DNA from: Novosphingobium sp. 9
GTDB lineage: Bacteria > Pseudomonadota > Alphaproteobacteria > Sphingomonadales > Sphingomonadaceae
NCBI RefSeq assembly: GCF_025340265.1
Contig: NZ_CP022707.1
Location: 558,001-622,000 of the forward strand
Length of the DNA: 64,000 bases
Direction of reading: 5' to 3'
The notes beneath the pieces are model-generated. The model saw only the letters and a list, made by a program, of their open reading frames with translations. It had not been told where the DNA came from and did not search any database. The translations under genes were made by a program, and so were the position numbers. This document shows positions 2,465 through 28,856 of the stretch, piece by piece; within the stretch, counting starts at the first letter, position 1, and every line of letters begins with the position of its first letter.

Positions 2465-2673
2465 TGTTTGAAAAATGCCTGCAACGGCATTTTTGAGACG
2501 GCACCGGCCCTCTCCCGTTCCGAAGATCACGAATATGTCCGGGGGACATATTCGCTGAGGGGGCCTGCCACCCGCAGGATACTACCGTTGGGTGGCAGGG
2601 TGGGGGCGCCAAAAAACAAAATGGGGCCGGTGCCGCAAAATTCGCATGCGCGAATTTTCGAACGGACTCTGAG
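2465..2673. repeat. palindromic three-stem repeat, copy A
   Basis: Three stem-loops in a row. Left: AAAAATGCC/GGCATTTTT (2471-2479 with 2486-2494). Centre: GGCACCGGCCC (2500-2510) pairs with GGGCCGGTGCC (2624-2634), enclosing CTGCCACCC/GGGTGGCAG (2565-2573 with 2590-2598). Right: AAAATTCGC/GCGAATTTT (2637-2645 with 2650-2658). The left central arm also holds an extra hairpin, GAATATGTCC/GGACATATTC (2531-2553), absent from the other copies. Related copies at 6049-6180 and 28699-28856; the latter is in reverse orientation. It fills the gap between the CBS gene and erpA and has no plausible ORF. Confidence 0.85.
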
Positions 2674-2727
2674 GCGCCACCTTCCTCCACCTTGTCGGAG
2701 AAGGGCGGCGCGCCTACATTCGCAGCC

Positions 2728-3060
2728 ATGGATACCACCGCTCTCACGCTCAGCCCCTCTGCCGCCGCGCGCGTTGCCGCCATCGCCGCGAAGCAGGGCA
2801 AGCCCGCGATCCTGCGCCTTGCCGTCGAAGGGGGCGGATGCTCGGGCTTCCAGTATCGCTTCGGACTGACCGATGCTGCCGATGCCGACGATTCGGTGAC
2901 GCAGACCGATGGCGTCTCGCTGGTGGTCGATTCGGTCAGCCTCGATCTGGTGAGCGGCTGCGTGGTCGATTACGTCGAATCGCTGGGCGGCGCGGCGTTC
3001 CGGGTCGAGAATCCGAATGCCTCTGCCGGGTGCGGCTGCGGATCGAGCTTCGCGATCTGA
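2728..3060 (+). CDS. erpA: iron-sulfur cluster insertion protein, HesB/IscA/ErpA family
   Basis: 110 residues with the A-type carrier signature: RLAVEGGGCSGFQYRF near residues 31-46 (first conserved Cys) and the C-terminal SAGCGCGSSF with the two other ligating cysteines. These dimers receive Fe-S clusters from the assembly scaffold and pass them to apo-enzymes. The start ATG at 2728 gives the usual family length; an in-frame start at 2692 would only add a non-conserved extension reaching toward the repeat. No isc/suf genes are adjacent. IscA and ErpA cannot be separated with certainty by eye. Confidence 0.85.
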   Translation: MDTTALTLSPSAAARVAAIAAKQGKPAILRLAVEGGGCSGFQYRFGLTDAADADDSVTQTDGVSLVVDSVSLDLVSGCVVDYVESLGGAAFRVENPNASAGCGCGSSFAI

Positions 3061-3086
3061 TCGCAGCAGAATAGCGCTGAATACGA

Positions 3087-3117
3087 GAAGGGCCGGAAGT
3101 TCGACTTCCGGCCCTTC
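3087..3117. terminator. strong hairpin between convergent genes
   Basis: Perfect 14-bp stem GAAGGGCCGGAAGT / ACTTCCGGCCCTTC with a TCG loop, between erpA (+) and the minus-strand glucosaminidase. A short T-containing tail follows (CCGTTTGTCC). Likely a bidirectional terminator. Confidence 0.75.
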
Positions 3118-3128
3118 CCGTTTGTCCC

Positions 3129-5124
3129 TCAGGGTTTCGGCGCTGGTGCCGGGGCTTGCCAGACCAGCCCCGGCGCATCGGCCACGAACGTATCGAGCAC
3201 CCCGTCGGCGACCTTGATCGGCCCGCCGATCCGCGTGGCGCCGGGGATCGACTGGATCGCGGTGGCCTTGTCCGCCAGCGCCTTCGCCTCTGCAAAGTCA
3301 CGCGGCGCGGCCTCGCTGCCCTCCAGTGCGGCATTCAGGCCATCGACCGTCAGGCGCAGCGAACGGCCCCAGAGCGCCGTCGCATCGAGCCAGGGCGCCG
3401 CTTCCGCCACGAACCCGCGCCCGGTCTCGCCCGGAACGCCGGCGCGGATGCGATCGGGCGCCGCCGCAAGCGCATCGGCGGCCTTGCCCAGACGGGCCAG
3501 CGCCGCGCGCAACGCGGCCACGTCACCGCTCGCCAGCGCATCGCGCACCGCATCGACCTTCGCGGCGAGCACCGGCGCCTGCGGCTGCCAGGGCTGGTGC
3601 CCGAAGGTCGGCGCGAGGTGCTGGGTGTCGAAGAAGGTCAGCAGCGCCTGCGTGGTTTCCGCATCGCCGCCCGCCATGTCACGCGCGGCGGCGCGCCAGG
3701 TGCGCTGCGCATCGTAGGCACTGTCGTTCCAGGCGAAAGCCAGCAGGCCCGCGACGGCGGGACGGCTCGCCACTTCCTGATTCATCGGATTGGCGACCAC
3801 GCCTTCCAGTTCGCTGGAAAGCCCCGCCTGTCGGCGATCATAGGGCGCCATCAGCAGTCGACCGGCGGACTCGCCATAGTCGTTCACCGGGTAATTGTCC
3901 CAGAGCAGGGTCTTGCGCCCGAAGGCCTTGGTCGCGGCCTTGGCATCGGACACCGAGATCGAGGAGGGCACCACGTCGGTCCCCGTCCACTGCACCACCA
4001 CGCGCGGATCGAGTGCTTCGCCCAGCGCCGTCTTGTAGGGCGAGACGGTGGCGTTGTAATATTCGGTCGGCACCATGATGAGCGCGCCGTGGCGGCCGGT
4101 ATGTGCCCCAGAACTGACATTGTCGGCCGTGATATCGGCCTGCACCGCGTTCAGCAGGCTGGCTTGCGCCTTGCCCGCAGCCGCCTCTCCCGGTGCGCCG
4201 AACTTCGCCTCGTCGTCCTTGCAGTTCCATTTGGTGTATTCGATATCGTCGAAGGCGACGTAGAAGCTGCGCACGCCGCGTGCCCGCAGCGCGCCGAACT
4301 TGGCGCGGATCGCGGCAAGGTCAGCCGGATCGCTGTAGCACACCGAGGGGCCGGGCGAGATCGCATAGACGAAATTCACATGCTCGCGGTTGGCAACATC
4401 GACCACCTTCGAAAGCGCATCGAGCGTTTCGGCGGGGTAGGGATCGCGCCAGTGATCGCGGGCGTAAGTGTCGTCCTTGGGCTGTAGATATAGGTATTGG
4501 CCTTGAACCGGGCGAGGAAGGCGATGTGCGCCTCGCGCTGCGCCATGGTCCACGGCTTGCCATAGAAGCCCTCGATGGTGCCGCGCACCGGCATGGCAGG
4601 GTAATCGGCGATGGTCAGCGAGGCGATGCTGTCTTTCGCCACCAACTGCCGCAAGCTCTGCGCCGCGTGATAGAGACCGTCCGCATCCTTGCCCGCCAGC
4701 ACGATCAGCGCGCCACTCTCGTCGGCCTTGCTGGCGAGGGCATAGCCTTCTTCGTGATCGGGCACGCTGGCGCCGGTCTGCGAAAGCGCCTTGGCGACCA
4801 GCGGCGTGTCCGCCGTGCCGAGCACGACCTGCACGCCCCCCGTTCGCCCTTGCCCATGCTGGAGGCGACGCGGACACGCGCCACGCCCGCCTGCGTCAGC
4901 ACCTGCCGCACGAGATCGAGGCTGGAAGCGTCGGTGCCCTTGGGGGCGACGATCGACACGCTGTCACCCAGCGCGATCTGCGGCCCGGTCAGGCGCAGCG
5001 ACTGCGGGGCGGGGAAGATCGCCGGTGCGGTAGCGGGCGCCGCAAGGGCAGGGACGGCGATCAGCAGCGCCGCCGCGCCTGTTGCCAGCAGACTCTTCGT
5101 TCGAAACGATCCCGACTTTCGCAT
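3129..5124 (-). pseudogene. beta-N-acetylglucosaminidase (GH84, NagJ/OGA-like), two frameshifts
   Basis: Read from 5124, the gene starts MRKSGSFRTKSLLATGAA, an export signal, then an N-terminal GH20b-like domain, the GH84 TIM barrel (RGTIEGFYGKPWTMAQRE) and a C-terminal helical region. The catalytic Asp pair is in FYVAFDDIEYTKWN. The frame breaks twice: near 4836-4841 (a run of six C on the plus strand) and near 4479-4481 (GGG). In both cases adding one base to the run restores a continuous product of about 665 residues. GH84 enzymes remove beta-linked N-acetylglucosamine. It is either a recent pseudogene or a sequencing artefact; the same error type recurs elsewhere in this window. No sugar-transport genes are adjacent. 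Confidence 0.8.
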
Positions 5125-5264
5125 AATGCCACTCGCCCCCGTCATTGGTATTTGATTGATCCGATATTGGTATCTGTGGCGACGGGATATGTCGAGATGA
5201 AAGCGTGCAGGGGATAGGGCCGCGCTCTTGACGACAGGGGGGCTCACTCCCGACAAGGCGCATC

Positions 5265-6038
5265 ATGAAGATTGCCACATTCAACATCAACGGGATCAAG
5301 GCCCGTCTGCCCCGCCTGCTCGAATGGCTGGAGGAAACCCGCCCTTCCGTCGCCTGTCTGCAGGAGATCAAGACGCAGGACGAGGGCTTCCCGATCGAAG
5401 AGTTCGAGAAGCTCGGCTACAAGGCGCTGTGGCACGGCCAGAAGGGCTTCAACGGCGTCGCGATCCTGGCGGACGGCGAACAGCCGGTCGAAGTGCGGCG
5501 CGGGCTGGAGGGCGACCCTGAGGATCTGCACTCGCGCTATCTGGAGGCGGACGTCTTCGGGGTGCGCGTCGCGTGCATCTATCTGCCCAACGGCAATCCG
5601 GTGCCCGGGCCGAAGTTCGACTACAAGCTGCGCTGGATGGAGCGGCTGCGCGCGCGCATGGCCGAGATCGCCGCCGAGGAAGTGCCCGCGATCGTCACCG
5701 GCGACTACAACGTGATCCCGACCGATGCCGATGTGTGGTCGCCCGCCGCAATGGCCTCGGACGCGCTGATGCAGCCGGAATCGCGCGATGCCTATTACCG
5801 CCTGCTGGGCGACGGCTGGACCGATGCGGTGGCCACCCATGCGCCGCAGGGCGGGGTGTGGACGTTCTGGGACTATCAGGCCGGGGCCTGGCAGCGCGAT
5901 CACGGCTTCCGCATCGATCACGCCCTGCTGTCACCCGAACTCGCCGACCGTCTGGTCGCCTGCGGCGTCGACAAGGAATACCGGGGCCGCGAGAAGTCCA
6001 GCGATCACACGCCGGTCTGGGTGGAATTGCGGGATTGA
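5265..6038 (+). CDS. xth: exodeoxyribonuclease III
   Basis: 257 residues of the exonuclease/endonuclease/phosphatase fold. Signature segments are MKIATFNINGIKARLP (metal-binding Asn), CLQEIKTQDE (catalytic Glu), TGDYNVIPTDADVW, WTFWDYQAGAWQRDHGFRIDH and the terminal KSSDHTPVWVEL (catalytic Asp-His). The enzyme cuts at abasic sites and degrades 3' ends in base-excision repair. The length equals that of the usual XthA family. It is a single gene, followed at once by palindromic repeat copy B. Confidence 0.93.
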   Translation: MKIATFNINGIKARLPRLLEWLEETRPSVACLQEIKTQDEGFPIEEFEKLGYKALWHGQKGFNGVAILADGEQPVEVRRGLEGDPEDLHSRYLEADVFGVRVACIYLPNGNPVPGPKFDYKLRWMERLRARMAEIAAEEVPAIVTGDYNVIPTDADVWSPAAMASDALMQPESRDAYYRLLGDGWTDAVATHAPQGGVWTFWDYQAGAWQRDHGFRIDHALLSPELADRLVACGVDKEYRGREKSSDHTPVWVELRD

Positions 6039-6048
6039 AGGGTTTTCG

Positions 6049-6180
6049 ATCCGGCCTGAAGGCCGGATTGATGCGGCACCGGCCCACGCCCCCACCCTGC
6101 CACCCCCTAGGTTACTATTGTCGGGTGGCAGGGTGGGGGCGTGGGCCGGTGCCGCAAGCCTCCTACGGAAGCAGGAGGCT
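6049..6180. repeat. palindromic three-stem repeat, copy B (33-bp perfect inverted repeat)
   Basis: The central stem is a perfect 33-bp inverted repeat, 6073-6105 pairing with 6123-6155 around a 17-nt loop; it begins GCGGCACCGGCCC and ends GGGCCGGTGCCGC. It is flanked by ATCCGGCCT/AGGCCGGAT (6049-6057 with 6060-6068) and AGCCTCCT/AGGAGGCT (6057-... region: 6157-6164 with 6173-6180). The outer hairpins differ in sequence from copies A and C but keep the same architecture. It separates xth (+) from the convergent SleB-type hydrolase gene and could also stop transcription from both. Confidence 0.88.
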
Positions 6181-6186
6181 ATATCA

Positions 6187-6861
6187 TCAGCGATAGAAGA
6201 TGTGGTTGTCGACCTGGGCCAGCTTCGTCAGGCCCCAGCGCGGCGAAACGCTCGTCGCGTGGAAGAACAGCGCGCCCTTGGCGGCGCTCTTCCAGGTGCC
6301 CTGATCGGCGATGCGCGCAATCGCGACAGCGCGGCTCCAGGTGTCCGAAGACGTGTCGATATGCGGCAGGCTGTGATGGCGCACGAACGAAAACTGCGAG
6401 GGCTGAAGCACCACGCCGCAGTAACTTGTCGGGAACCGACCCGAGCTGGTGCGGTTTACAATGACACGGGCCACGGCCAGCTGACCTTCGAGCGTCTCGC
6501 CGCGCGCCTCGAAATAGACGGCGCCCGCCAGGCACTTCATGTTGCGGTCGAGCTTGCCCGCGTTGTCGGCAACGTCGGACACCAGTTCGGAGAGCGAGGA
6601 AGCGCTCTGGTCCGAAGCATCGGTGGAAACAGGGTCGGCCACGTTGTCTGCATCGTCGTCTGCGGCGTCAGGTCCGGCGCTCGCTTCGGCATTGGGAAGC
6701 GGCTGGACGACAGGCTGCGACACGAAGGCCACGGGATTCTGTTCGGTCTGCCCGGGTGCCACCACCGAGGCTACCGCGCCCGATCCCAGGGCGCTCAGGA
6801 GGGTCACGAGGACCATCGCGGAACGGGCACATGCGCCCGCCCAAACCAGTTTGCTCTTCAT
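6187..6861 (-). CDS. cell wall hydrolase, SleB family
   Basis: 224 residues. An N-terminal signal/anchor (MKSKLVWAGACARSAMV..., about 1-35) precedes an Ala/Asp-rich linker and the SleB hydrolase domain (about 115-224), with the catalytic-region motif CLAGAVYFEARGETLEGQLAV followed by VARVIVNRT, PTSYCGVVLQPSQFSF and the terminal NHIFYR. Such enzymes cleave peptidoglycan glycan strands in the periplasm. An in-frame start at 6933 would put 24 polar residues before the signal, so 6861 is preferred. It ends close to the palindromic repeat. Confidence 0.85.
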   Translation of the reverse strand: MKSKLVWAGACARSAMVLVTLLSALGSGAVASVVAPGQTEQNPVAFVSQPVVQPLPNAEASAGPDAADDDADNVADPVSTDASDQSASSLSELVSDVADNAGKLDRNMKCLAGAVYFEARGETLEGQLAVARVIVNRTSSGRFPTSYCGVVLQPSQFSFVRHHSLPHIDTSSDTWSRAVAIARIADQGTWKSAAKGALFFHATSVSPRWGLTKLAQVDNHIFYR

Positions 6862-7065
6862 CGAGCCTTGTTCAAGAGCGGTGAACCGGTCAGACACAGG
6901 CCCTGGAACGGATGCTCCCCCCGCGGAAAGCATGTGACCCGTTCGGCCTGCCGACGATCCCCCGTCTGCGTGCTAGCGTCCCGGGCCGATCTGCCCCGAA
7001 AGCCGCATTCGCTTCAACGAGAGCGCGCCGTTGCCAGCCCGCGAAAGCCAAGTCAACCCACCGGG

Positions 7066-7395
7066 TCAGCCTTCCACGAGGAGTCGTTCGCCCCCTGCGA
7101 CATCCAGTTCGACGATCCACAGGTCGCGATCCTGCGCCTTTCGCCGGTCGAGGTACTCGGTAAATTCGAATGGGTTTTCAGCGTCCTGCACCCGCGAACA
7201 GTCCCATCCACGGGTGCCGTCGAGACGCGGCATCCGCTCGTAGAGACGGGCCAGACCGCCACGTTCCTGTATCGTCACAAGAATTGTTCCGGCGTCCGCC
7301 TCTCCCTTGGCGAGCACCATCGCGAATCCCCCGGCAGCCTGCGTGCGGCGAATCAGCGCGGCGACTTCGAGGTGGGCGGGCAGGCGCTGGTCCAT
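7066..7395 (-). CDS. DUF1491 family protein
   Basis: 109 residues beginning MDQRLPAHLEVAALIRRTQA and containing GGFAMVLAKGEADAGTILV and CSRVQDAENPFEFTEYLDRR, which match the DUF1491 family of alphaproteobacteria as I remember it. Function unknown; no signal peptide or membrane segment. It starts 10 bp after the thioesterase gene stop and is the last gene of a probable hpf-ptsN-thioesterase-DUF1491 run. The upstream extension of the frame is not conserved in character. Confidence 0.78.
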   Translation of the reverse strand: MDQRLPAHLEVAALIRRTQAAGGFAMVLAKGEADAGTILVTIQERGGLARLYERMPRLDGTRGWDCSRVQDAENPFEFTEYLDRRKAQDRDLWIVELDVAGGERLLVEG

Positions 7396-7405
7396 GGCGG
7401 AAGCG

Positions 7406-7933
7406 TTACCCTTCGTCGGGAACGGAGGCGGGGATGGATGCGGGATTGCCGTATCCGGCCAGCCCCGAAAGCGCCATGCGCGATCGCATGAACGTTCCGG
7501 TGCCGCGCCCGATCTCCTCGCCCGTTGCATCGACCAGCCGCGATTCCGCCACCAGCACGCGGCGGCGCCCGCTGATCCACCGGCCATGCGCCGTCACCCG
7601 CCCCTCGCGCACCGGGGCGGAGAAGTGCAGGTTGAACGAGGTGGTCAGCAGGAAACGGTCGGTGACGAGGGTATTGGCGGCATAGAACGCCGCATCGTCG
7701 AGCATCTTGAAGTAGATGGTGCCGTGCGCCGCGCCTGCGGCATGAAACACCTCGGGACCAACCTCGAACGAGATCGTCGCCTCGCCTTCTTCGTGGATCG
7801 CCAGCGAAGAGCGGAACAGGCGGTTGATCGGGGCCGAGTGATAGAGCGCTTCCAGCGCCCGCCAGTGTGTCTGCGCCCCGCTGGAAGCCCCTTCGTTGGA
7901 CACTGGGCGCGCGATACTGTCGTCAGGCTGCAT
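7406..7933 (-). CDS. PaaI/hotdog-fold thioesterase family protein
   Basis: 175 residues with a hotdog fold: a short N-terminal helix region, then VFHAAGAAHGTIYFKMLDDAAFYAAN (the central hotdog helix with HGTIYFKMLDDAA), LLTTSFNLHFSAPVREG and ISGRRRVLVAESRLVDATG, and a terminal GTGTFMRSRM strand. The family hydrolyses acyl-CoA or aryl-CoA thioesters; the substrate here cannot be told. Its first 11 bp overlap the 3' end of ptsN, indicating translational coupling. Confidence 0.82.
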   Translation of the reverse strand: MQPDDSIARPVSNEGASSGAQTHWRALEALYHSAPINRLFRSSLAIHEEGEATISFEVGPEVFHAAGAAHGTIYFKMLDDAAFYAANTLVTDRFLLTTSFNLHFSAPVREGRVTAHGRWISGRRRVLVAESRLVDATGEEIGRGTGTFMRSRMALSGLAGYGNPASIPASVPDEG

Positions 7934-8384
7934 CGCGCTCGATGACGTTGCTCAGCAGGCTGTAGATGGCTTCCGCGCTGGGCGCCGCCATCAGGGTTTC
8001 GTGCATGCGCTCGTCACGCATCATGCGCGAGATCGCCGCCAGCGCGTGGAGGTGGACCGCGCCTGCGCCATCGGGCGAGAGCAGGCCGAACACCAGATCG
8101 ACCGGCTGACCGTCCGCCGCCTCGAAATCGACGGCGGCTTCCAGACGCACGAACCCGGCAACCGGGCGCTGGAGGCCGGGAATGCGGGCATGGGGAATGG
8201 CGATGCGGCGGCCGAAGCCGGTGCTGCCCAGTGCTTCGCGCTCGAACAGGTGGGCCAGCACGGTCTCGCGATCGAGATCGTAGACCTGCGCGAAAAGATC
8301 GGCGAGGCGCCCCAGAATGATCGGCTTGCTGTCCGCGCTTACCGTGGTCACGGCTTCGGGCAGCAGGGTGAAAAGATGGTTCAT
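7923..8384 (-). CDS. ptsN: PTS IIA-like nitrogen regulatory protein PtsN
   Basis: 153 residues of the IIA(Ntr) fold. The phosphorylated histidine lies in TGFGRRIAIPHARIPG (about residue 64), and PVDLVFGLLSPDGAGAVHLHAL and AISRMMRDERM are conserved. EIIA(Ntr) is the end acceptor of the nitrogen-related phosphotransfer chain and regulates partners such as K+ transport and stress sigma factors. The position just downstream of hpf is the common proteobacterial arrangement. The ATG at 8384 (MNHLFTLLP) is chosen over an in-frame TTG at 8426 that would lie inside the hairpin leader. Confidence 0.92.
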   Translation of the reverse strand: MNHLFTLLPEAVTTVSADSKPIILGRLADLFAQVYDLDRETVLAHLFEREALGSTGFGRRIAIPHARIPGLQRPVAGFVRLEAAVDFEAADGQPVDLVFGLLSPDGAGAVHLHALAAISRMMRDERMHETLMAAPSAEAIYSLLSNVIERDAA

Positions 8385-8434
8385 CGTATACGTACTGATC
8401 TGGTCCGTGACCGCCCCCGTGGTCAAATGCAGAT

Positions 8435-8457
8435 GAGCCCCGGCTGAACCGGGGCTC
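8435..8457. terminator. hairpin between hpf and ptsN
   Basis: Perfect 9-bp stem GAGCCCCGG / CCGGGGCTC with a 5-nt loop in the hpf-ptsN gap. No T-run follows in the minus direction, so it may be a partial terminator or an mRNA-processing/stabilising stem rather than a full stop. Confidence 0.55.
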
Positions 8458-8519
8458 CTTGCGTTGTCCGCCGTTGAAGTATCAGCCCTGGAGGCAGGAC
8501 CGATGGCGCACGCTCAGCG

Positions 8520-9092
8520 TCAGTGCGGCTCCACCCAGCCGATCGAACCGTCGCCGCGGCGGTAAACCATATTATGGCGTCCCGTTCCAGCGTTTTTGAA
8601 GAACAGCGCATTGGTGTGCCGCAGGTCGAGCATCATCACCGCGTCCGAAACGGTGGCTTCGGGAATGTCCACGCGGGTTTCGGCGATCACCACCGGCGCT
8701 TCCTGCTCCGGCTCGTCGTCGTTCTCGTGGTGCTGCTGTTCCTCGAAGATGATGTAGGCGGCTTCCTCCACCGCGGCGGCGTGATGGGCCTGCTCGCTGC
8801 GGTCCTTGAGGCGGCGCTTGTAGCGGCGCAGCTGCTTGTCGATCTTTTCCGCCGCCTGATCGAGCGCGGGGTGCGCGTCCTGCGCGGAACCGGTGGCCTT
8901 GAGCACCAGATTCTGCATCACATGCATGATGATGTCGCATCGAAATGCGCCGGCCGGCGCACGCCCGAAGGTGACGTGCGACGAGAGGGCCCGGTTGAAA
9001 TACTTCGCGATGATCGCATCGAGACGTTCGCTTGCGTAGACCTGCAGGGCCTCGCCAGTTTCGACCTGATGACCGGAAACGCGGATATCCAT
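8520..9092 (-). CDS. hpf: ribosome hibernation promoting factor, long form (HPF)
   Basis: 190 residues in two domains. The N-terminal domain (about 1-100, MDIRVSGHQVETGEALQVYA ... DKQLRRYKRRLKDR) binds the 30S decoding region. After an acidic/His-rich linker comes the C-terminal dimerisation domain (about 135-190, SDAVMMLDLRHTNALFF ... YRRGDGSIGWVEPH), which pairs two ribosomes into 100S dimers in stationary phase. Having both domains makes it the long form. The ATG at 9092 has GAGGAG about 10 nt upstream; a TTG two codons earlier would be too close. First gene of the run ending at DUF1491. Confidence 0.93.
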   Translation of the reverse strand: MDIRVSGHQVETGEALQVYASERLDAIIAKYFNRALSSHVTFGRAPAGAFRCDIIMHVMQNLVLKATGSAQDAHPALDQAAEKIDKQLRRYKRRLKDRSEQAHHAAAVEEAAYIIFEEQQHHENDDEPEQEAPVVIAETRVDIPEATVSDAVMMLDLRHTNALFFKNAGTGRHNMVYRRGDGSIGWVEPH

Positions 9093-9116
9093 GGGCAATT
9101 GCTCCTCTTCTTGGCG

Positions 9117-9803
9117 TTATCCCTCACCCCAGAGCGGGGCATCGACTGACTTCAGAAACGCCGCATGGGTGGCGAGTTCCTCGGCAGTGGCCGCGTGGGG
9201 ACGCGGCTGGCGGAAGGGACGGTCCTTTCGGACGAGGACCTTGGTTTCCGCCACGATTTCGTGTGCCTCGGCCACAAGGCCAAGGCCGATCTGGCGCCCG
9301 CCGCGCAGTTCGACATAGACCTGCGCGAGCAGTTCGGCGTCGAGCAGCGCGCCGTGCTTGGTACGATGGCTGCGATCGATGCCGTAGCGGGTGCACAGCG
9401 CATCGAGCGACAGCTTGGCGCCGGGATGGCGCTGCTTGGCCAGCGCCACGGTATCGACCATGCGATCGCGCGAGACCGCCTCGAGACCGCAGAGCGCCAA
9501 CTCGGCATTGATGAAGTTGAAATCGAACCCGGCGTTGTGCGCGACCATCGGCGCATCGCCGATGAAATCGAGGAAATCCTGCGCACAGGCCGAAAACAGC
9601 GGCTTGTCGGCCAGGAAGGCATCGGACAGGCCGTGCACCGCCTCGGCCTCTGCCGGCATGCCGCGTTCGGGGTTGAAATAGGCGTGATAGGTGGCGCCCG
9701 AGGGCACCCGGTTGATCATCTCGATACAGCCGATCTCGACCATCCGGTCCCCGCTCTTGGGGTCGAATCCAGTCGTCTCGGTGTCAAAGATAATCTCTCG
9801 CAT
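9117..9803 (-). CDS. dnaQ: DNA polymerase III subunit epsilon
   Basis: 228 residues of the DEDDh 3'-5' exonuclease family: ExoI motif IFDTETTGFDP (Asp/Glu metal ligands, about residues 6-16), ExoII MVAHNAGFDFNFINAEL, and ExoIII HRTKHGALLDAELLAQVYVEL with the catalytic His and Asp. As the proofreading subunit it works with DnaE in the replicative core. The C-terminal segment would contact the polymerase PHP domain. It follows coaE on the same strand in the origin-proximal gene string coaE-dnaQ, a usual alphaproteobacterial order. Confidence 0.93.
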   Translation of the reverse strand: MREIIFDTETTGFDPKSGDRMVEIGCIEMINRVPSGATYHAYFNPERGMPAEAEAVHGLSDAFLADKPLFSACAQDFLDFIGDAPMVAHNAGFDFNFINAELALCGLEAVSRDRMVDTVALAKQRHPGAKLSLDALCTRYGIDRSHRTKHGALLDAELLAQVYVELRGGRQIGLGLVAEAHEIVAETKVLVRKDRPFRQPRPHAATAEELATHAAFLKSVDAPLWGEG

Positions 9804-9853
9804 TCCTCTTCATATCTGCCTCATGACGCTTTCGTGCAAGGGCCGGACGGGGA

Positions 9854-10471
9854 TTAATAATCTCCGCTTATCCTCTTCACGACGGCATCCACCTGATCAC
9901 GGGTCTGCTCCAGCGTGGTGCCGGTATCGATCACATGGTCGGCGCGCGCGCGCTTTTCCGCGTCGGGCACCTGAAGCGCCAGAATTGCCTCGAATTTCGC
10001 CTCGGTCATACCCGGACGGGCGAGCACGCGGGCGCGCTGCATCCCGGCGGGGGCAGAGACCACCGCGACCGCATCGAGCGTCTTTTCGTAGCCCTTTTCG
10101 TAGAGCAGCGGGATATCCATCACCACCAGCGGCGCTTCGGCATGGTCGCGCAGGAAGGCCGCCCGCAGATCGGCCACGGCGGGATGGACGATCCCCTCCA
10201 GCCGCGCCATCGCCTGCGGATCGCCGAACACCGCCGCGCCCATCTTTGCGCGGTCGAGGCCACCGGGTCCGGTCGTGCCGGGAAACGCCGCCTCGATGGC
10301 GGGCAGCAGCGCGCCGCCCGGTCCTTGCAGGACGTGGACCGCCGCATCGGCATCGAACACCGGCACGCCAAGCTCGCGCAGCATCGTCGCCACGGTCGAC
10401 TTGCCCATGCCGATCGAACCGGTCAGGCCCAGAATGACGGGGCGGTTGTCGGTCGTTTTCGGGCCAGGCAC
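9854..10471 (-). CDS. coaE: dephospho-CoA kinase
   Basis: 205 residues, P-loop kinase. Walker A is [19 protein letters not shown] near residue 13, followed by [13 protein letters not shown] (substrate Asp) and [12 protein letters not shown], with [18 protein letters not shown] in the middle, all characteristic of CoaE. It catalyses the last step of coenzyme A synthesis. The start is a GTG, supported by a strong TAAGGAGG 5 nt upstream. It begins 21 bp after aroE ends, in the run ppsR-maf-aroE-coaE-dnaQ. Confidence 0.94.
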
Positions 10472-10492
10472 GCCCGCCTCCTTACGACAGGA

Positions 10493-11925: not shown

Positions 11926-11938
11926 CGTCTTGGCTCTT

Positions 11939-19758: not shown

Positions 19759-19764
19759 GGTCTG

Positions 19765-19818: not shown

Positions 19819-19996
19819 GGTCGTCTCCCGTTTTTGGTTCTGGTCGGGGTTTCGGCTCAGGCTAGGACGATGCGATGGCTTTGCCCACTGTTTCCGGCAC
19901 TTGGCACTTGCAAAAGCGCGGCGATGGACTTTGCGACGCGCATGTGTCAGCACATGAGGGTCGATAAGGTTCCGGGGCCATCGGGGAGAGACGACG

Positions 19997-20278: not shown

Positions 20279-20309
20279 CGCGAGCGCCTGCCCGCGCTTT
20301 GCATCATCC

Positions 20310-21590: not shown

Positions 21591-21606
21591 TGTTCCACGT
21601 GGAACA
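21591..21606. other. parS site between mnmE and mnmG
   Basis: TGTTCCACGTGGAACA is a perfect 16-bp palindrome and a full match to alphaproteobacterial parS. It begins on the base after the mnmE stop codon. Confidence 0.92.
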
Positions 21607-21673
21607 TTTGCGCGGGTAAAATCGCGTTTGCACTTTGACCGGAGTCGTGGACTGGCGTAAGCGCGAAGTCGAA

Positions 21674-23551
21674 ATGCATTCCTTCGACGTTATCGTGATC
21701 GGCGGCGGCCATGCCGGCTGCGAAGCTGCGGCTGTCGCGGCCCGCATGGGTGCGCGCACCGCGCTCGTCAGCTTCGATCCCGCCACCATCGGCGCGATGA
21801 GCTGCAACCCGGCCATCGGCGGCCTCGGCAAGGGCCACCTCGTGCGAGAGGTTGACGCGTTCGACGGCCTTATCGCCCGCGCCGCCGATGCCTCGGCCAT
21901 CCATTATCGCATGCTCAACCGCTCCAAGGGCAGTGCGGTGCAGGGCCCGCGCGTGCAGGCCGACCGAGCGCTGTTCAAGGCGGCGATCCATCACCTGCTG
22001 GCGTGTCAGGGCGACCTCACCATCGTCGGTGGCGAGGCGGCGGACCTGATCGTCGAGGGCGGCGCGGTGTGCGGCATCGAACTGGCGGACGGCTCGCGGC
22101 TGAGCGCCGGGGCGGTCGTGCTGTGCACCGGCACGTTCTTGGGCGGCACGCTGTTCCGGGGCGAGGAGCGACTGACCGGCGGACGGATCGGCGAGGCCTC
22201 GGCCCAGCGCCTTGCTGCGCGCCTTCGCGATGCGGACCTGCCGATGGCCCGCCTCAAGACCGGAACACCGCCGCGCCTCGATGGGCGCACCATCGACTGG
22301 GCACGTCTGGAAGTGCAGCCTTCCGATGGCGAGCACTGGACGATGTCGGCGCTCGGCGCACCGAATACCGAAGGGCAGGACGGGGGCGCGCGTCGCACTG
22401 TCCCGCAAGTGTTCTGTGCCGTCACGCGGACCAATGCCCACACGCACGATCTGATCCGCGCCAACCTCGATCGCTCGCCGCTGTTCAGTGGTGCTATCGG
22501 CGCGCGTGGTCCGCGCTATTGTCCGTCGATCGAGGACAAGATCCATCGTTTCGCCGATCGTGACAGCCACCAGATATTCCTGGAGCCGGAGGGCCTGACG
22601 ACGCCGCTGGTCTATCCCAACGGGGTCAGCACCTCGTTGCCGACCGATGTGCAACTGGCGATGATGCGCTCGATGGACGGGCTTGAGCGCGTCGAGATGG
22701 CGGTGCCGGGCTATGCGGTGGAATACGATCACATCGATCCGCGTGCGCTGCGGCACAGTTTGGAACTGCGCGATATGCCGGGGCTCTACTGCGCGGGCCA
22801 GATCAACGGCACGACGGGATACGAGGAAGCGGCAGCGCAAGGACTGGTCGCAGGGATGCACGCGGCGGCCAAAGTGCTCGGGCGCGAAGCGGCGCCCATC
22901 GACCGCGCAAACTCCTATATGGCGGTGATGATCGATGACCTGACGCTGCACGGGGTGAGCGAGCCCTATCGCATGCTGACCGCGCGGGCCGAATATCGCC
23001 TCCGCCTTCGTGCCAACAACGCCTCGACCCGGCTGACCCCTCTGGCGATCGCGGCGGGGACGGTCGGGGCGGAACGATGCGCGTGGTTCGCGCAGCGTGG
23101 CGAGCAGCGTGCAGCGCTGGAATCGGCGTTCGATACAAAGGTCGGCGCCGTCGATCTCGTCGCGCAGGGCTTGCCGGTCCGTACCGATCAGGGGCGCCTG
23201 CCGGTGCGCGAATGGCTGCGGTTCGGCGGCATCGAATTGGCACATCTGCTGCCGTGGATCGACGGGGCGGAAGGTGCCGATCCCGATCTGCTCGAAGAGC
23301 TGGTCGAGGATGCCGAATATGCGCCGTACCTCGACCGGCAGGAGCGCGAACTGCGCGACTTGCGGGCCAGCGAAACACTGCGACTGGCAGACGATTTTCC
23401 TTACGATCAGGTACCGGGCCTGTCGCACGAGATGGTCGAGAGACTGACGTCGGCGCGACCGGCGACGCTGGCGGCGGCAGGGCGCGTACCGGGCATCACG
23501 CCCGCCGCGCTCGCCGCGCTGCTCGTCCATGCCCGGCGGGAGGCAGCATGA
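21674..23551 (+). CDS. mnmG: tRNA uridine-5-carboxymethylaminomethyl(34) synthesis enzyme MnmG
   Basis: 625 residues. The FAD-binding fold begins [24 protein letters not shown], then [21 protein letters not shown], the conserved [13 protein letters not shown], and LPDLYCAGQ-like [21 protein letters not shown]; the C-terminal helical domain ends in [13 protein letters not shown]. With MnmE it installs the cmnm5 group at U34. The ATG at 21674 ([12 protein letters not shown]) is preferred to an in-frame TTG at 21635 that would only add a short non-conserved tail. Its stop overlaps the rsmG start (ATGA). Confidence 0.95.
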
Positions 23552-24189
23552 TTACCAATGAGAGCGAAGCGCAGGCCTGGCTGGCAGCGCGCCCCGAATA
23601 CGATGCCACTGCGCGCGAGCGGATCGAGACGCTGATCGCGATGCTGGTGGAAGAGAACAAGGTGCAGAACCTCGTCTCTGCCGCCAGTCTTGATCAGGTG
23701 TGGCAACGCCATATCGTCGACAGCGCGCAGCTGCTGGCCCATGTTCCACGTGAAACATCCGGCGTCTGGCTCGACCTTGGCACCGGTGCTGGTTTCCCCG
23801 GCCTAGCGGTAGCCGCCCTGCGCCCGGACCTGGAAGTGGTGATGGTCGAATCGCGGGCCCGCCGCATCGACTGGCTCGACCGGGCGCGGATCGCGATGGG
23901 CCTGGACCGCGCGCAGGTGGTCGGCAGCCGTCTTGAACTGGTCGAATCGCGCGACGTGAGTGTGGTTTCCGCGCGCGCCTTTGCACCGCTCGACAAACTT
24001 CTCGCATTGTCTGCCCGATTTTCCACAAGCGAAACGATTTGGGTGTTGCCCAAGGGGCGGTCTGCACAGCAAGAATTGGACGACCTTCGCAAGTGGCGGC
24101 ACATGTTCCACGTGGAACAGTCCCTGACGGACCCGCAGGCAGGCATCATCGTCGGTACGCTGACCGACGGGAAGGACAGGACCAGATGA
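23548..24189 (+). CDS. rsmG: 16S rRNA (guanine(527)-N(7))-methyltransferase RsmG
   Basis: 213 residues, Rossmann-type methyltransferase: [22 protein letters not shown], the SAM site [17 protein letters not shown] near residue 75, and [12 protein letters not shown]. It methylates G527 of 16S rRNA. Start and stop both overlap neighbours by 4 bp (ATGA with mnmG and with parA), so the cluster is tightly coupled. Two parS sites (23742 and 24104) are embedded in its coding sequence. Confidence 0.94.
23742..23757. other. parS site inside rsmG (5' part)
   Basis: TGTTCCACGTGAAACA fits TGTTYCACGTGRAACA at every position, within codons for HVPRET. Confidence 0.9.
24104..24119. other. parS site inside rsmG (3' part)
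   Basis: TGTTCCACGTGGAACA, a perfect palindromic parS, within codons for MFHVEQ, about 80 bp before the parA start. Confidence 0.92.
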
Positions 24190-24962
24190 TCCGTATCGCC
24201 ATTGCCAACCAGAAGGGCGGAGTCGGCAAGACCACCACCGCCATCAACGTGGCTACGGCCCTTGCGGCAACGGGCTGGAACACCCTGCTGGTCGATCTCG
24301 ATCCGCAGGGCAATGCCTCGACCGGGATCGGCGTTTCGGCGGCGGATCGCGAATATTCGACTTACGACCTGCTGGTCGATGGCGCGCCGCTGCGCCAGTG
24401 CGTGGTGGGGACGTCGATCCCCAACCTCGACCTCTTGCCCGCGACCGTCGATCTGTCCGGCGCCGAGGTGGAGCTGGTGAGTGCGGAGGATCGCACGCAT
24501 CGTCTGGGCAAGGCGCTCTCGGTCGAAAATCCCTACGACGTCTGTCTGATCGATTGCCCGCCTTCGCTGGGTCTGCTGACGCTGAATGCGCTGACCGCTG
24601 CCGATACGTTGCTGGTCCCGCTCCAGTGCGAGTTCTTCGCGCTCGAAGGGCTGAGCCAGCTGTTGCAGACGGTGGAGCGGGTGCAGCAGCGCTTCAATCC
24701 AGAACTCGGCATCATCGGCATTGCCCTGACGATGTACGACCGCCGCAACCGGTTGACCGATCAGGTTTCCGAGGATGTGCGCTCGGTGCTGGGGCAGCTG
24801 GTGTTCGAGACAGTGATCCCGCGCAATGTGCGCCTGTCGGAAGCGCCCAGCCATGGCGTTCCGGCGCTTATCTACGATCATGCCTGCGCCGGTAGCCGCG
24901 CCTATATGGCGCTGGCCCGCGAGCTGATCACACGACTGCCCGAAAAGAGGAAAGCGGCATGA
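24186..24962 (+). CDS. parA: chromosome partitioning ATPase ParA
   Basis: 258 residues, the Walker-type ParA/Soj family without an N-terminal HTH, as in chromosomal versions. Deviant Walker A IANQKGGVGKTTTAIN near residue 6 with both lysines, LLVDLDPQGNASTG, VCLIDCPPSLGLLTLNAL (Walker B) and IPRNVRLSEAPSHGVPALIYD. ParA-ATP forms a nucleoid-bound gradient that pulls ParB-parS complexes toward the new pole. Start overlaps the rsmG stop and stop overlaps the parB start. Confidence 0.96.
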   Translation: MIRIAIANQKGGVGKTTTAINVATALAATGWNTLLVDLDPQGNASTGIGVSAADREYSTYDLLVDGAPLRQCVVGTSIPNLDLLPATVDLSGAEVELVSAEDRTHRLGKALSVENPYDVCLIDCPPSLGLLTLNALTAADTLLVPLQCEFFALEGLSQLLQTVERVQQRFNPELGIIGIALTMYDRRNRLTDQVSEDVRSVLGQLVFETVIPRNVRLSEAPSHGVPALIYDHACAGSRAYMALARELITRLPEKRKAA

Positions 24963-25927
24963 ACGACGATTCCATCATCCGCATCACGCCGCCGCAAAGT
25001 CCGGTGACGCCTCGCCAGAAGCCCAAGGGTCTCGGGCGCGGCCTTGGCGCACTGCTGGGCGAGACGCGGCGCGAGGAACCAGTTGCGGGTGCAGGACACA
25101 ATTCGGGCGCGGTGGCGACGCCGCGCGTCGGCGGTCTGGCGGTTCTGACGATTGCCGATATCGTGCCGCATCCCGATCAGCCGCGCCGCATCTTCAACGA
25201 GGAGGCGTTGGGCGAACTGGCTGCCTCGATCGAGCAGCGCGGGGTGATCCAGCCCGTGATCGTGCGACCGATACCGGGTGGCAAGTACCAGCTCGTCGCC
25301 GGTGAGCGTCGCTGGCGCGCGGCGCAGAAGGCGCACCTCCACGAGATTCCGGCGCTGGTCCGCGAACTGACCGAGCGCGAGGTGATGGCGCTGGCGCTAA
25401 TCGAGAACCTCCAGCGCGAGGATCTCAACCCGATCGAAGAGGCCCGCGCCTATCAGCGCCTCGCCGAATCGGAGAGCATGACTCAGGCCGAGATCGCCCG
25501 CATGGTCGACAAGAGCCGCAGCCATGTCGCCAACTTCCAGCGCCTGCTGGCGCTCCCCGACGATGTGATCGGGCTGGTCGAGACCGGTGAGTTGTCGATG
25601 GGGCATGCTCGCGCGCTGATCGGTTGCGAGGGTGCGTTCGAGATCGCCGAGGCGGCCATCGCCAGGCAGATGTCGGTGCGCGAGATCGAGAAGCTGGTGC
25701 GCAAGAAGGCGCGCGGCACCACCGAACCGCGCCGCGCCCGCACCGCGCGCAGTTCCACGCAGGATGCCGATATCGCGGCGATGGAACAGCACCTTGAGGA
25801 ATTTCTCGGCCTGCCGGTGAAGATCGATGCCGATGCCGATCCGCGTTCGGGCACCGTCTCGATCCGCTATGCCACGCTCGATCAGCTCGATCTGGTATGC
25901 CAGCGGCTTACCGGCGGCGGGATCTGA
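24959..25927 (+). CDS. parB: chromosome partitioning protein ParB
   Basis: 322 residues. Order: basic N-terminal ParA-contact segment (PKGLGRGLGALLG, about 20-33), the ParB/Srx CTP-binding domain (IADIVPHPDQPRRIFNEEAL, VAGERRWRAAQKAHL, LIENLQREDLNPIEEARAY), a helix-turn-helix that reads parS (MTQAEIARMVDKSRSHVANF), and a C-terminal dimerisation region (LGLPVKIDADADPRSGTVSI). It loads at parS and slides as a CTP clamp. The six parS-like sites in this window are its expected targets. Confidence 0.96.
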   Translation: MNDDSIIRITPPQSPVTPRQKPKGLGRGLGALLGETRREEPVAGAGHNSGAVATPRVGGLAVLTIADIVPHPDQPRRIFNEEALGELAASIEQRGVIQPVIVRPIPGGKYQLVAGERRWRAAQKAHLHEIPALVRELTEREVMALALIENLQREDLNPIEEARAYQRLAESESMTQAEIARMVDKSRSHVANFQRLLALPDDVIGLVETGELSMGHARALIGCEGAFEIAEAAIARQMSVREIEKLVRKKARGTTEPRRARTARSSTQDADIAAMEQHLEEFLGLPVKIDADADPRSGTVSIRYATLDQLDLVCQRLTGGGI

Positions 25928-25966
25928 TCCGGCGACGGTAATTTCGACCGCTGTGATCGAACAGGG

Positions 25967-25992
25967 AAGGGCTGCATCGCGCGGCCCTTTTT
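25967..25992 (+). terminator. terminator after parB
   Basis: AAGGGC (25967-25972) and GCCCTT (25984-25989) form a stem ending in TTTTT (25988-25992), about 40 bp after the parB stop. It closes the mnmE-mnmG-rsmG-parA-parB unit. Confidence 0.7.
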
Positions 25993-25996
25993 CGTA

Positions 25997-26497
25997 TCAG
26001 CGCCGTAGCGGCGCCTTGCTGCCGGGCGACAGTCTGGAGCCGGTATCGACATAGGCATAGTCGATCACCGGGCTGCTGTGCGCTGCCGCAGGGGATGCTG
26101 CGGTAGGCTGCTGGACCGGCGCGGGAGTGGATTGCGCACCCGAGGGGGCTACGGGAACCATCATCACCGGCACCATGCCCGGCGCATAGCCATAGACGTA
26201 TCCCGGCTCCCCGCGCGCTGCCGCTTCGTAGCGGGCGGCGTAGCTGTCGAGATAGGCCTCGCACTCGCCACTGTCATAACCGGCGGCACCATCGCGATAG
26301 CCAAGGCGGCGGTGGCAGTCGTCTAGCCAGGCGGCGCGCGCGGCGGGATCGAAGCTGAACTGGATGGGGGCAGGTGCCGGTGCGGGAGCAGACTCGGGCG
26401 CCACAGCTTTTGCAAGGGCTGGCGTGGCCGACAGTGCCGCGAAGCTGAGGGCAAGGGCGCAAAGGCTGCGCAGGCGAACGATAGCGTGTCGGTCCAT
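25997..26497 (-). CDS. secreted protein of unknown function
   Basis: 166 residues. An N-terminal signal peptide (LRSLCALALSFAALSATPALA, cleavage after about residue 29) is followed by a Pro/Ala linker, a short conserved-looking segment FDPAARAAWLDDCHRRLGY with CEAYLDSYAARYE (two Cys), a Tyr/Gly/Met/Pro-rich region and a Pro/Ala/Ser-rich tail. It is probably periplasmic. I do not recognise the family. It converges with parB, separated by the parB terminator. Confidence 0.7.
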   Translation of the reverse strand: MDRHAIVRLRSLCALALSFAALSATPALAKAVAPESAPAPAPAPIQFSFDPAARAAWLDDCHRRLGYRDGAAGYDSGECEAYLDSYAARYEAAARGEPGYVYGYAPGMVPVMMVPVAPSGAQSTPAPVQQPTAASPAAAHSSPVIDYAYVDTGSRLSPGSKAPLRR

Positions 26498-26592
26498 ATG
26501 CGGACTTTAACGCAAAATTCACCATGAGGATCGGGAAATCTTCAGGGCTCGGCGGCTGCCCCGAAGCGGGACAACCGCCGGGCTTTTGTTAC

Positions 26593-27075
26593 TCAGATAC
26601 AGGATGCGGCCAGCGCGGCGAGGCGCTCGATGCCGTCGGCGTCCTCGCTGTCGAAGCGATTGGGCTCGGGGCTGTCGAGGTCGATCACCGCGATCACCTT
26701 GCCCTCGCGGATCACCGGCACCACCAGCTCCGAACGGCTTGCCGCGTCGCAGGCGATATGGCCCTCGAAGGCGTGGACGTCGGGCACCAACTGGGTCGCA
26801 GCCTGAGAAGCTGCCGCGCCGCACACCCCGCGCCCGAAGGGGATACGGATGCAGGCAGGCTTGCCGACGAACGGCCCGAGCACCAGTTCGTCCTCGACCG
26901 AGCGGTAGAACCCGGCCCAGTTGAGATCGGGCACCAGCTGCCAGATCAGTGAGGCGAGGTTGGCCATGTTGGCCACGCCATCGGGCTCGCCATCGACCAG
27001 CGCGCTCGCGCACTGGAGCAGGTAGTCATAGCGTTCGGCCTTGGGCGTATCGGGGGCGAGATTGAAATCGTACAT
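26593..27075 (-). CDS. msrC: free methionine-(R)-sulfoxide reductase (GAF domain, fRMsr)
   Basis: 160 residues, a single GAF domain. LNWAGFYRSVEDELVLGPFVGKPACIRIPFGRGVCGAA and HIACDAASRSELVVPV contain the three cysteines of the fRMsr active site, followed by AVIDLDSPEPNRFDSEDADG. (The first quoted region spans residues about 52-88.) The enzyme reduces free Met-R-sulfoxide. It is divergent from the sugar dehydrogenase gene. Confidence 0.86.
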   Translation of the reverse strand: MYDFNLAPDTPKAERYDYLLQCASALVDGEPDGVANMANLASLIWQLVPDLNWAGFYRSVEDELVLGPFVGKPACIRIPFGRGVCGAAASQAATQLVPDVHAFEGHIACDAASRSELVVPVIREGKVIAVIDLDSPEPNRFDSEDADGIERLAALAASCI

Positions 27076-27137
27076 GGGCGCTGCGATACTCCAAAGCGAG
27101 GTTGCCGCCTAGAGCATGGCCTCGTATCTGTAAGGCC

Positions 27138-28616
27138 ATGGCCTCGATCCTCAAGCGAAGCGCGCTGGCGCTGCTCGTCATTCTCGTCCTGCTGGCGGCG
27201 CTGCTCGCCTGGACGCAGTATTCCAATTCCTCGGACCTGCCCTCCACGGCGACGACCGGGCCGGACCCCAAGCTCGTCGATCCGGCACCGCAGTGGTTCC
27301 CGAGCGTCAGCCTGCCCAAGACGGTGGGCTGGGGCGCGGACGGCAAGCCCGATGCAGGCAAGGGGCTGTCGGTCAGCCGCTTTGCCGAAGGGCTCGATCA
27401 CCCGCGCACAATGCTGACGCTGCCCAATGGCGATGTGCTGGTGACGGAAACGAATGCCCCGGCGGTCAGCCGCGAGGGCGGCGGGATCACCGGTGCGGTG
27501 GCGCGCTGGATGATGAAGCGCGTGGGCGCCGGCGAGGCGTCTCCCGATACCATCGTGCTGCTTCGCGATGCCAATGGCGACGGCAAGGCCGAACAGCGCT
27601 TCACCTTCCGCACTGCTGACATGCGCTCGCCCTCGGGCATGGCCTATGGCGATGGCACGCTTTACGTCGCCGATCACGATGCCGTTCTCGCCTTCCCGTT
27701 CACGCCGGGCGCCACCAAGCTGACCAGCGCGCCGCGCAAGCTGATGGACCTGCCCGCAGGTGGCCAGCACTGGATGCGCAATCTGCTGCTCAGCCCCGAT
27801 GGCGCGCATCTCTATGTCGCGGTCGGTTCGGGCACCAACGTTGCCGACAACGGTCTCGATGCCGAGAAGGGCCGCGCCGGGATCTGGGAGATCGACACCA
27901 AGACGGGCTCGCACCGTCCTTATGCGGCGGGGATGCGCAATCCCAACGGGATGGACTGGAATCCGTCGACCGGCATGCTCTGGGCGACGGTGCAGGAGCG
28001 CGACATGCTCGGCCCCGATCTGGTGCCGGACTACCTCACCGACGTTCCGGTGGGCGCGCAGTATGGCTGGCCGTGGGTCTACTGGCGCGACCATTTCGAT
28101 GACCGTGCGAACTATCCGATGCAGATCGGCATGACCGACTATACCCGTCGCCCGCGCTATGCGATGGGCGCGCATACCGCCGTGCTGGGCATGACCTTCG
28201 CCAAGGGTGGCGAGCGTCTGGGGCCGGGCTTTGCCAACGGCGCCTTCATCGCCCGCCATGGCTCGTGGAACCGTCGCCCGGCAGTGGGTTACGATGTCGT
28301 CTATGTCCCGTTCGATGCGCTGGGCAATGCGACCGCAGCGATGCTGGTGCCGGTGCTGAGCGGCTTCCTCGACGGCAAGGGCGATACCCATGGCCGTCCG
28401 GTCTGGCTCACCTGGGGCCACGACGGCAGCCTGCTGGTCAGCGACGATACCGCAGGCATGATCTGGCGCGTGATCGCGCCGGGCGCGGCGCCGTCTCCGG
28501 CACCCAAGCCGGTCGTGACGGACCACATGAAGCCGCAGACCGAGCTGAAGGACCCTTCGCTGATCACCCCGCAGATGCTGATGGGCGGGATGATGAAATC
28601 GTCCGACGGTCAGTGA
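27138..28616 (+). CDS. PQQ-dependent sugar dehydrogenase / sorbosone dehydrogenase family protein
   Basis: 492 residues. An N-terminal membrane anchor (about 7-27) precedes a six-bladed beta-propeller of the soluble aldose dehydrogenase/sorbosone dehydrogenase type: SRFAEGLDHPRTMLTLPNGDVLV, VADHDAVLAFPF, MRNPNGMDWNPSTGMLWATVQERD, VGAQYGWPWVYW, FIARHGSWNRRPAVGYDVVYV and PVWLTWGHDGSLLVSDDTAGMIWR. Such enzymes oxidise sugars or aldehydes with PQQ in the periplasm. The ATG at 27138 (MASILKRSALALL) gives a clean signal-anchor; an earlier in-frame start at 27102 adds 12 residues. Confidence 0.83.
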   Translation: MASILKRSALALLVILVLLAALLAWTQYSNSSDLPSTATTGPDPKLVDPAPQWFPSVSLPKTVGWGADGKPDAGKGLSVSRFAEGLDHPRTMLTLPNGDVLVTETNAPAVSREGGGITGAVARWMMKRVGAGEASPDTIVLLRDANGDGKAEQRFTFRTADMRSPSGMAYGDGTLYVADHDAVLAFPFTPGATKLTSAPRKLMDLPAGGQHWMRNLLLSPDGAHLYVAVGSGTNVADNGLDAEKGRAGIWEIDTKTGSHRPYAAGMRNPNGMDWNPSTGMLWATVQERDMLGPDLVPDYLTDVPVGAQYGWPWVYWRDHFDDRANYPMQIGMTDYTRRPRYAMGAHTAVLGMTFAKGGERLGPGFANGAFIARHGSWNRRPAVGYDVVYVPFDALGNATAAMLVPVLSGFLDGKGDTHGRPVWLTWGHDGSLLVSDDTAGMIWRVIAPGAAPSPAPKPVVTDHMKPQTELKDPSLITPQMLMGGMMKSSDGQ

Positions 28617-28636
28617 GCATCGCCTGATCGAACAGG

Positions 28637-28673
28637 AAAAGGCCCGCCGGAGTTCTGCTCCGGCGGGCCTTTT
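28637..28673. terminator. strong hairpin after the sugar dehydrogenase gene
   Basis: AAAAGGCCCGCCGGAG and its complement CTCCGGCGGGCCTTTT form a perfect 16-bp stem with a 5-nt loop, 20 bp after the stop codon. It has A- and T-runs at the two ends and would work in both directions. Confidence 0.88.
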
Positions 28674-28698
28674 CGCATCTGGATCGGGGAGGTAGGGC

Positions 28699-28856
28699 TC
28701 AGAGTTCGTTTGAAAATTCGCGAAAGGCGAATTTTGCGGCACCTGCCCGCGCCCCCACCCTACCTCCCAACGGTAGTATCCTGCGGGTGGTAGGGTGGGG
28801 GAGGGCGGGCCGGTGCCGCATTCAAAAATGCCCGTCAGGGCATTTTTCAAATCAGA
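28699..28856. repeat. palindromic three-stem repeat, copy C (reverse orientation of copy A)
   Basis: Left stem AAAATTCGC/GCGAATTTT (28713-28721 with 28727-28735) equals the right stem of copy A. Right stem AAAAATGCCC/GGGCATTTTT (28824-28833 with 28838-28847) equals the left stem of copy A. The central arms GCGGCACCTGCCC... (28736-28768) and ...GGGCCGGTGCCGC (28785-28819) pair imperfectly. Flanks also match: CTCAGAGTTCGTTTG here against the reverse complement CTCAGAGTCCGTTCG of copy A. The element abuts the stop codon of the DUF815 gene. Confidence 0.88.

Follow-up and report, generated by a model that had tools for sequence, protein, structure and literature searches.

What are the palindromic repeats that lie at gene ends in Novosphingobium sp. 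9, and how did they come to be there? Three of them, copies A, B and C, occur in the window considered here, a stretch of 64,000 nucleotides (G000:C1:558001-622000, contig NZ_CP022707.1) in a genome of 4.39 Mb and two contigs. An earlier note, made from the letters alone, had read them as a mobile, structured non-coding element that resembles a miniature inverted-repeat transposable element (MITE). Terminal inverted repeats (TIRs), duplicated TNA triplets, near-identical copies in a related genome, an empty site and an IS5-family insertion sequence (IS) with the same ends bear out that reading. On this sequence evidence, the element is very probably a MITE that is moved by a transposase of the IS5/IS1031 type and that inserts into TNA, often in stop codons. 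Literature searches, judged on titles and the openings of abstracts, found no name or description of the repeat family; for annotation, the gain is that a sphingomonad repeat family now has defined boundaries, a covariance model and a transposase that probably mobilises it.

Ends, target sites and an IS5-family partner

The standard element is around 150 bp in length (range of around 140-210 bp), which is too short for a transposase gene. Both ends of well-preserved copies read GAGNCNGTTTGAAAA (variants GGAAA and GAGAA) and adjoin TNA; the Novosphingobium consensus is the inverted repeat GAGNCNGTTTG(A/G)(A/G)AA. One relative, G002, contains five near-identical elements, each between matching triplets (TTA, TAA or TGA). 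Target-site duplication, for which the earlier note had proposed to look, is evident in five relatives: among the matches listed, 30 of the 36 kept TIR pairs have identical TNA on both sides (G002, 8/8; G094, 12/17; G005, 7/8; G030, 2/2; G102, 1/1), compared with a shuffled mean of 10.0 and a maximum of 23 in 200,000. These pairs were joined by hand at distances of ≤250 bp. Four more were set aside owing to a mismatch in the TNA itself, one of them the L079 element; if these are counted as failures, the figure is 30/40.

The same ends also occur 902 bp apart in G002, where they bound an IS5-family element with one uninterrupted transposase. This protein matches NF033580 (transpos_IS5_3) with 231 bits against a cut-off of 110, and 42 of 194 Novosphingobium genomes contain relatives of it at E ≤ 1e-60. 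We examined 33 IS5 loci, comprising 30 from the genus search and three from the own genome. A GAG-type pair of ends was present in 15, with identical TNA on both sides in 13. Seven of these (L248, L249 and L252-L256) have element-like ends, GAGNC(C/T)GTTTGAGAAT or GAGNC(C/T)GTTTGGAAAA, with identical TNA in five; identical TNA flanks all of the remaining eight, most of which have GAGCCCGAT-type ends. The own IS5 genes, which match PF13340, were rejected as partners: L104 has repeats of TTAGAGCGGATTTCGA and L103 has long repeats containing TAGGCGGCGTGGACAAATT, neither of which are those of the element, and L105 has no convincing inverted repeats.

Within the IS5 family, according to the parts of PMC12016507 drawn on here, the IS1031 group is marked by a TNA target with a 3-bp direct repeat; this feature is found in the element and in the IS5 copies of the genus, more weakly in the own genome. 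Some IS5 copies of the genus have ends that closely match those of the element, which differs in its length (around 150 bp) and in having no transposase gene. Three internal hairpins also distinguish it; none was seen in the ends of the single IS that was read throughout. With bacterial MITEs, as presented in the parts of PMC10969869 drawn on here, the element shares TIRs, direct repeats, a non-coding body, intergenic positions and stable stem-loops. MITEs are typically AT-rich in that account, whereas the element is by eye G+C-rich, and the main text of the review does not contain the term 'stop codon'.

Evidence of movement comes from individual sites. The joined flanks of nine G005 elements were searched in genomes G007 and G126. 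In G126, the flanks of seven of the nine match as two pieces separated by 140-212 bases, which would fit filled sites, and those of L241 match on one side only. The L079 site is empty in G126: 282 joined bases match as a single piece at 92%. The empty site has the open frame LQAGL-TAA-GGCTTTCC, and the filled site in G005 reads LQAGL-TAA-element-TAA-GGCTTTCC; the right end of this element is present in one extra 11-bp copy. Matches in G007 across the joined flanks of L078, L080 and L240 are too divergent to reveal a triplet.

A full element in G002 occupies the stop codon of a gene that we take, from its sequence, to be folE. Of 24 folE loci, 21 were read to the gene end: 19 have no element, G002 has the full element and G005 has a 43-bp remnant at the identical stop-codon position, which is absent in the relative G007. 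Elements also lie at the orthologous sites of copies A and B (sites A and B) in several species, and these relatives are too divergent for a duplication to be read; at site A, L110 has an element with other arms, which fits either an old insertion or repeated insertion.

Stop codons as insertion sites

In the own genome, 36 copies have both core arms. Twenty lie between convergent genes, 14 between co-directional genes and two between divergent genes; the 60 gene pairs of the window, which serve as background, comprise 11, 39 and 10, respectively, and the convergent excess (20/36 versus 11/60) has a P value of 2.6e-4. The facing stop codon is 27-47 bp from the core in 29 of the 36 copies, a range picked after the distances were known. 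In 13 of the 36, the TNA is exactly the facing stop codon, compared with 158 of 1,276 non-coding TNA sites (P = 2.3e-4). This roughly threefold excess may reflect selection, target context or both. Fifty-nine loci from other genomes (64 were given; one short locus and same-sequence repeats were removed) comprise 27 convergent, 24 co-directional and 8 divergent cases, with the facing stop ≤50 bp from the core in 44.

Every TNA is a stop codon on one or the other strand, so that insertion with duplication leaves the protein unchanged, and the many copies that lie in stop codons and duplicate them explain the location at gene ends. We propose that an IS5/IS1031-type transposase, supplied in trans, would act on the ends of the element and insert it into TNA; wherever that TNA is a stop codon, the stop would be duplicated. 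Such insertions would survive because they are neutral, and neutrality and target choice would together place the copies. The element would thereby come to lie in the 3′ UTR, in which its three hairpins could form a stable RNA. Selection on structure may preserve these hairpins, as may copying of one arm onto the other within the palindrome, or both may be at work; the hairpins may, we infer, have a function. The rule for harmless transposon hits at gene ends would then be simple: the TNA target is the stop codon, and its duplication restores the stop.

Several points weigh against this account. Movement in trans is something that we infer from matching ends. Of the 72 ends in the own genome, 40 were recognised (score of at least 10 of 13), with TNA beside 28 of the 40; the remaining 32, among them the two of copy B, have no recognisable GAG-type sequence. 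Among the 16 own copies in which both ends are recognised, only 5 lie between identical triplets (shuffle P = 0.09), and a search of the own genome for the partner transposase at E ≤ 1e-60 yielded no homologue. By these signs, most own copies look old. Among the IS5 loci, 18 of 33 yielded no GAG-type ends, and two of the three IS with GAGAAT ends are flanked by non-identical triplets (L248, TCA/TTA; L249, TTA/TCA). There is no second TGA at the folE remnant of G005. Other genera, of which three were read in detail (G314, G268 and G233), have different ends there, and the case for a MITE is one made within Novosphingobium. As for placement, genes were called with a home-made tool based on codon usage, the background gene pairs include tightly spaced operon pairs, and the shortage of divergent sites (2/36 versus 10/60) is not significant (P = 0.20).

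Anatomy of the copies

Copies A, B and C each have a core stem-loop with the base CGGCACCGGCCC..GGGCCGGTGCCG or near to it, a loop of approximately NNAGGRTACTAYCGTY and a smaller hairpin on each side. Their features in window coordinates are as follows.

2456-2458, plus strand: TGA stop of a CBS-domain gene (2033-2458) and left target-site duplication of copy A (sequence, CBS domain match and gene call)
2459-2669, plus strand: whole of copy A (G000:C1:560459-560669); left end GAGGCTGTTTGAAAA, preceded by one extra G; right end GAGTCCGTTCGAAAA (reading inward)
2471-2494, plus strand: left arm hairpin of copy A, type A, AATGCC/GGCATT (fold and arm typing)
2499-2635, plus strand: core stem-loop of copy A, CGGCACCGGCCC..GGGCCGGTGCCG, with two extra segments within
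2514-2562 (bounds approximate), plus strand: extra module of copy A in the 5′ half of the core stem, hairpin CGAATATGTCC/GGACATATTCG (GTCC hairpin)
2637-2658, plus strand: right arm hairpin of copy A, type B, AATTCGC/GCGAATT
2670-2672, no strand: TGA, right target-site duplication of copy A
6036-6038, plus strand: TGA stop of gene 5265-6038 (Exo_endo_phos), adjoining copy B
6039-6186, no strand: whole of copy B, flanked by two convergent stop codons; arm sequences differ; GAG-type end not recognisable
6046-6071, no strand: left arm hairpin of copy B
6072-6156, no strand: core stem-loop of copy B, with 34-nt arms that are 100% complementary
6157-6180, no strand: right arm hairpin of copy B
6187-6189, minus strand: TCA, the stop (TGA) of a cell-wall hydrolase gene ending at 6187
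28699-28701, no strand: TCA, a TNA triplet bordering copy C on the left
28702-28851, minus strand: whole of copy C, with the orientation of copy A reversed; left end GAGTTCGTTTGAAAA; right end degenerate, without a matching right triplet
28713-28735, minus strand: arm hairpin of copy C, type B
28735-28820, minus strand: core stem-loop of copy C
28821-28850, minus strand: arm hairpin of copy C, type A
28852-28854, minus strand: TCA, the stop (TGA) of a DUF815 gene (28852-29580), abutting copy C

The description in the earlier note holds throughout the window. All three copies, each with a long central inverted repeat and two side hairpins, lie where it had placed them; copy C is copy A reversed, in both arm order and loop orientation; copy B has the same architecture with other outer hairpins; and all are at gene ends, with A after a TGA stop, B between convergent stops and C against the DUF815 stop. 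In copy B, 17 nt separate the arms of the perfect 34-nt inverted repeat, with a hairpin at either side. Folding z-scores relative to shuffles are -13.7 for copy B, -9.6 for copy C and -6.6 for copy A, and none of 200 shuffles was equally stable in any case. The second extra segment in the core stem of copy A is A-rich (near 2608-2622), and a module like that at 2514-2562 is also present in three other own copies.

Gene 5265-6038 is presumably xth. A beta-N-acetylglucosaminidase gene (PF07555; 3129-4553, minus strand) lies between an Fe-S biosynthesis gene and this xth-like gene; in many relatives the distance from the CBS gene to xth is only around 400 bases. Just upstream of copy C, at 28636-28674, lies a GC-rich hairpin, perfect over 17 bp and with tracts of A and T, that has the look of a bidirectional terminator and was not listed by the terminator scan.

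With the copy B core as query, the own genome yielded 83 strand-wise matches, which were grouped into 40 places. Both core arms are present in 36, including C1:2463110, which has a degenerate right arm; three of the other four look like remnants and one (C1:2748234) looks like chance. Two further places were found through their ends: L098, which has lost the core and kept both ends with TCA on each side, and L094, a half copy. The inner motif has 42 matches, compared with one for the reversed motif. Thus the family that the earlier note had recognised from three members is real and far larger than it appeared there, and the further copies and structural conservation on which that note had let its reading depend are both present (36 copies and compensatory stem changes).

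To align cores we required a regular core length, which excluded eight own copies and left 37 cores, 36 of them distinct (28 own, 7 from G005, and one each from L110 and L127). Standard pairs fill 97.7% of the core-stem cells, and 8 of the 32 pairs show double changes; 64 cells are doubly changed, compared with 22.2 in shuffles and 0-12 in slid versions. The arms are also structured: the 40-nt flanks of own copies have z < -2 in 50 of 72 cases, compared with 6 of 72 control stretches (mononucleotide shuffles), and flanks in other genomes in 47 of 90. Both arms could be typed by motif in 20 of the 36 own copies, and type A pairs always with B (17) and C always with D (3). Among 19 copies with a clear loop, the loop orientation is concordant with arm order in 11 and discordant in 8.

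Some copies contain a GTCC hairpin or an A-rich segment inside the stem. The GTCC..GGAC hairpin module is found within some copies, and GTCCCCCGGAC occurs in 3 of 80 loci of relatives (L136, L137 and L145); the module is possibly a palindromic repeat of its own, nested in the other. Shorter forms (L238, L239, L240 and L241; 88-105 bp including triplets) have both ends and arms and little core, and L298 is a 43-bp remnant, which suggests that the core hairpin is often lost. Ends of two kinds are combined in L081:1171-1334 and L110:8156-8319, where GAGT..TTGT..GTGCGC at one side is opposed by an end of the GTTTGAAAAT or GTTGAAAAT type, suggesting an exchange of ends.

Distribution and alternative origins

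A covariance model of the core (R1) was searched in Novosphingobium and its order. It matches 160 of 195 Novosphingobium genomes (E ≤ 1e-3); at order level, with E ≤ 1e-5, there are matches in 96 of 246 genomes, which belong to 27 of 71 genera. The E-values are rough, and match counts, which take in both strands of the palindrome and have an upper limit per genome, are not copy numbers. What is conserved order-wide is the core, in most cases together with hairpin arms. Rfam has no family at gathering score in the window; six other loci have 33 Rfam matches at E ≤ 0.01, none of which reaches gathering score, 32 of them to microRNA precursors and one to an internal ribosome entry site.

This distribution raises the possibility, which we regard as doubtful though by no means negligible, that the core, as a structured element in its own right, is older and was captured by different IS5-type ends in different lineages, the three-stem form being a composite. 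Core and loop recur across the 27 genera while arms and ends are by eye lineage-specific (GAGNCNGTTTG, GAGTCTGAT and TTTGTCAGA), and loop orientation is independent of arm order (the 11 concordant and 8 discordant copies above). However, shared descent with fast-changing ends would give an identical picture, recombination between the arms of the core can itself flip the loop, and an armless core was never seen to move. The unusual traits of the family are its modular three-hairpin body, a core found order-wide even without these ends and the repeated use of the folE stop codon. A related and rather unlikely view is that the structure-conserved core is a portable 3′-UTR module that is taken up with different IS5-type ends, delivered through TNA to stop codons and kept either for its usefulness to the transcript or for its own spread.

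It is likewise improbable, although worth weighing, that the repeat serves the host as a bidirectional terminator or stabiliser of mRNA 3′ ends and is selected at gene ends, with mobility accounting only for its past spread. The convergent excess, the strong covariation of the core stem, the presence of the core across the order and the fact that several species have elements at the orthologues of sites A and B all agree with such a role. So does the perfection of the core: arm identity is 0.99 in seven own copies without recognisable ends and 0.95 in seven with both. This equality hints at maintenance of the palindrome, and fits selection, arm-to-arm copying or other ends from the start. However, insertion into stop codons alone accounts for the location, and occupancy is sparse: by eye, site A has an element in only 3 of 38 relatives shown and site B in 4 of 44, and 19 of the 21 folE loci have none. 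An ordinary-looking hairpin terminator is also present downstream of the element at folE in G002 and beside copy C, and by eye no T run follows the core, which therefore lacks the form of an intrinsic terminator; in many of the arms, runs of 4-5 T pair with runs of A. The terminator module that the earlier note had offered as an option may thus survive as a side effect of a MITE, and is not needed to explain the element, which at folE in G002 lies upstream of an apparent ordinary terminator. Across its many genera and copies, the family forms a natural data set in which to ask whether hairpins at transcript ends are selected or palindromes perfect themselves by arm copying.

RIME, BIME, ERIC and Correia elements are also palindromic mosaic repeats of intergenic regions. 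The repeat is palindromic, extragenic, multi-copy and mosaic, as would be expected of a REP, BIME or REPIN family moved by a REP-associated tyrosine transposase (RAYT), a Y1 enzyme, and with REP/REPIN sequences it shares hairpin DNA in extragenic positions. Nevertheless, its TIRs and TNA duplication fit a DDE transposase and set it apart from such families. A search for Y1 transposases in the own genome and 14 control genomes found a single own Y1_Tnp match (L084, G000:C2:326733-327089), which is by eye IS200-like, contains an in-frame TAA and lies next to an apparent IS110-type transposase gene (also by eye); its 3.4-kb locus has no end of the element. No RAYT-like gene was found in the own genome, and the REP/BIME option of the earlier note is therefore very improbable. 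An origin by chance or as an assembly artefact of GC-rich palindromes, which can arise at contig ends (L192, a short locus with two arms alike, is possibly one), is refuted by copies inside megabase contigs, the fold z-scores, the 42 inner motifs versus one reversed and the core in 160 of 195 genomes, and its probability is practically nil.

Like elements are also present in plasmid records, at five places in NZ_CP017076.1 (Novosphingobium resinovorum) and four in NZ_CP079204.1 (Sphingomonas sanguinis), with strands counted apart and no listed feature beneath the best match; plasmids are a possible route by which the element spreads.

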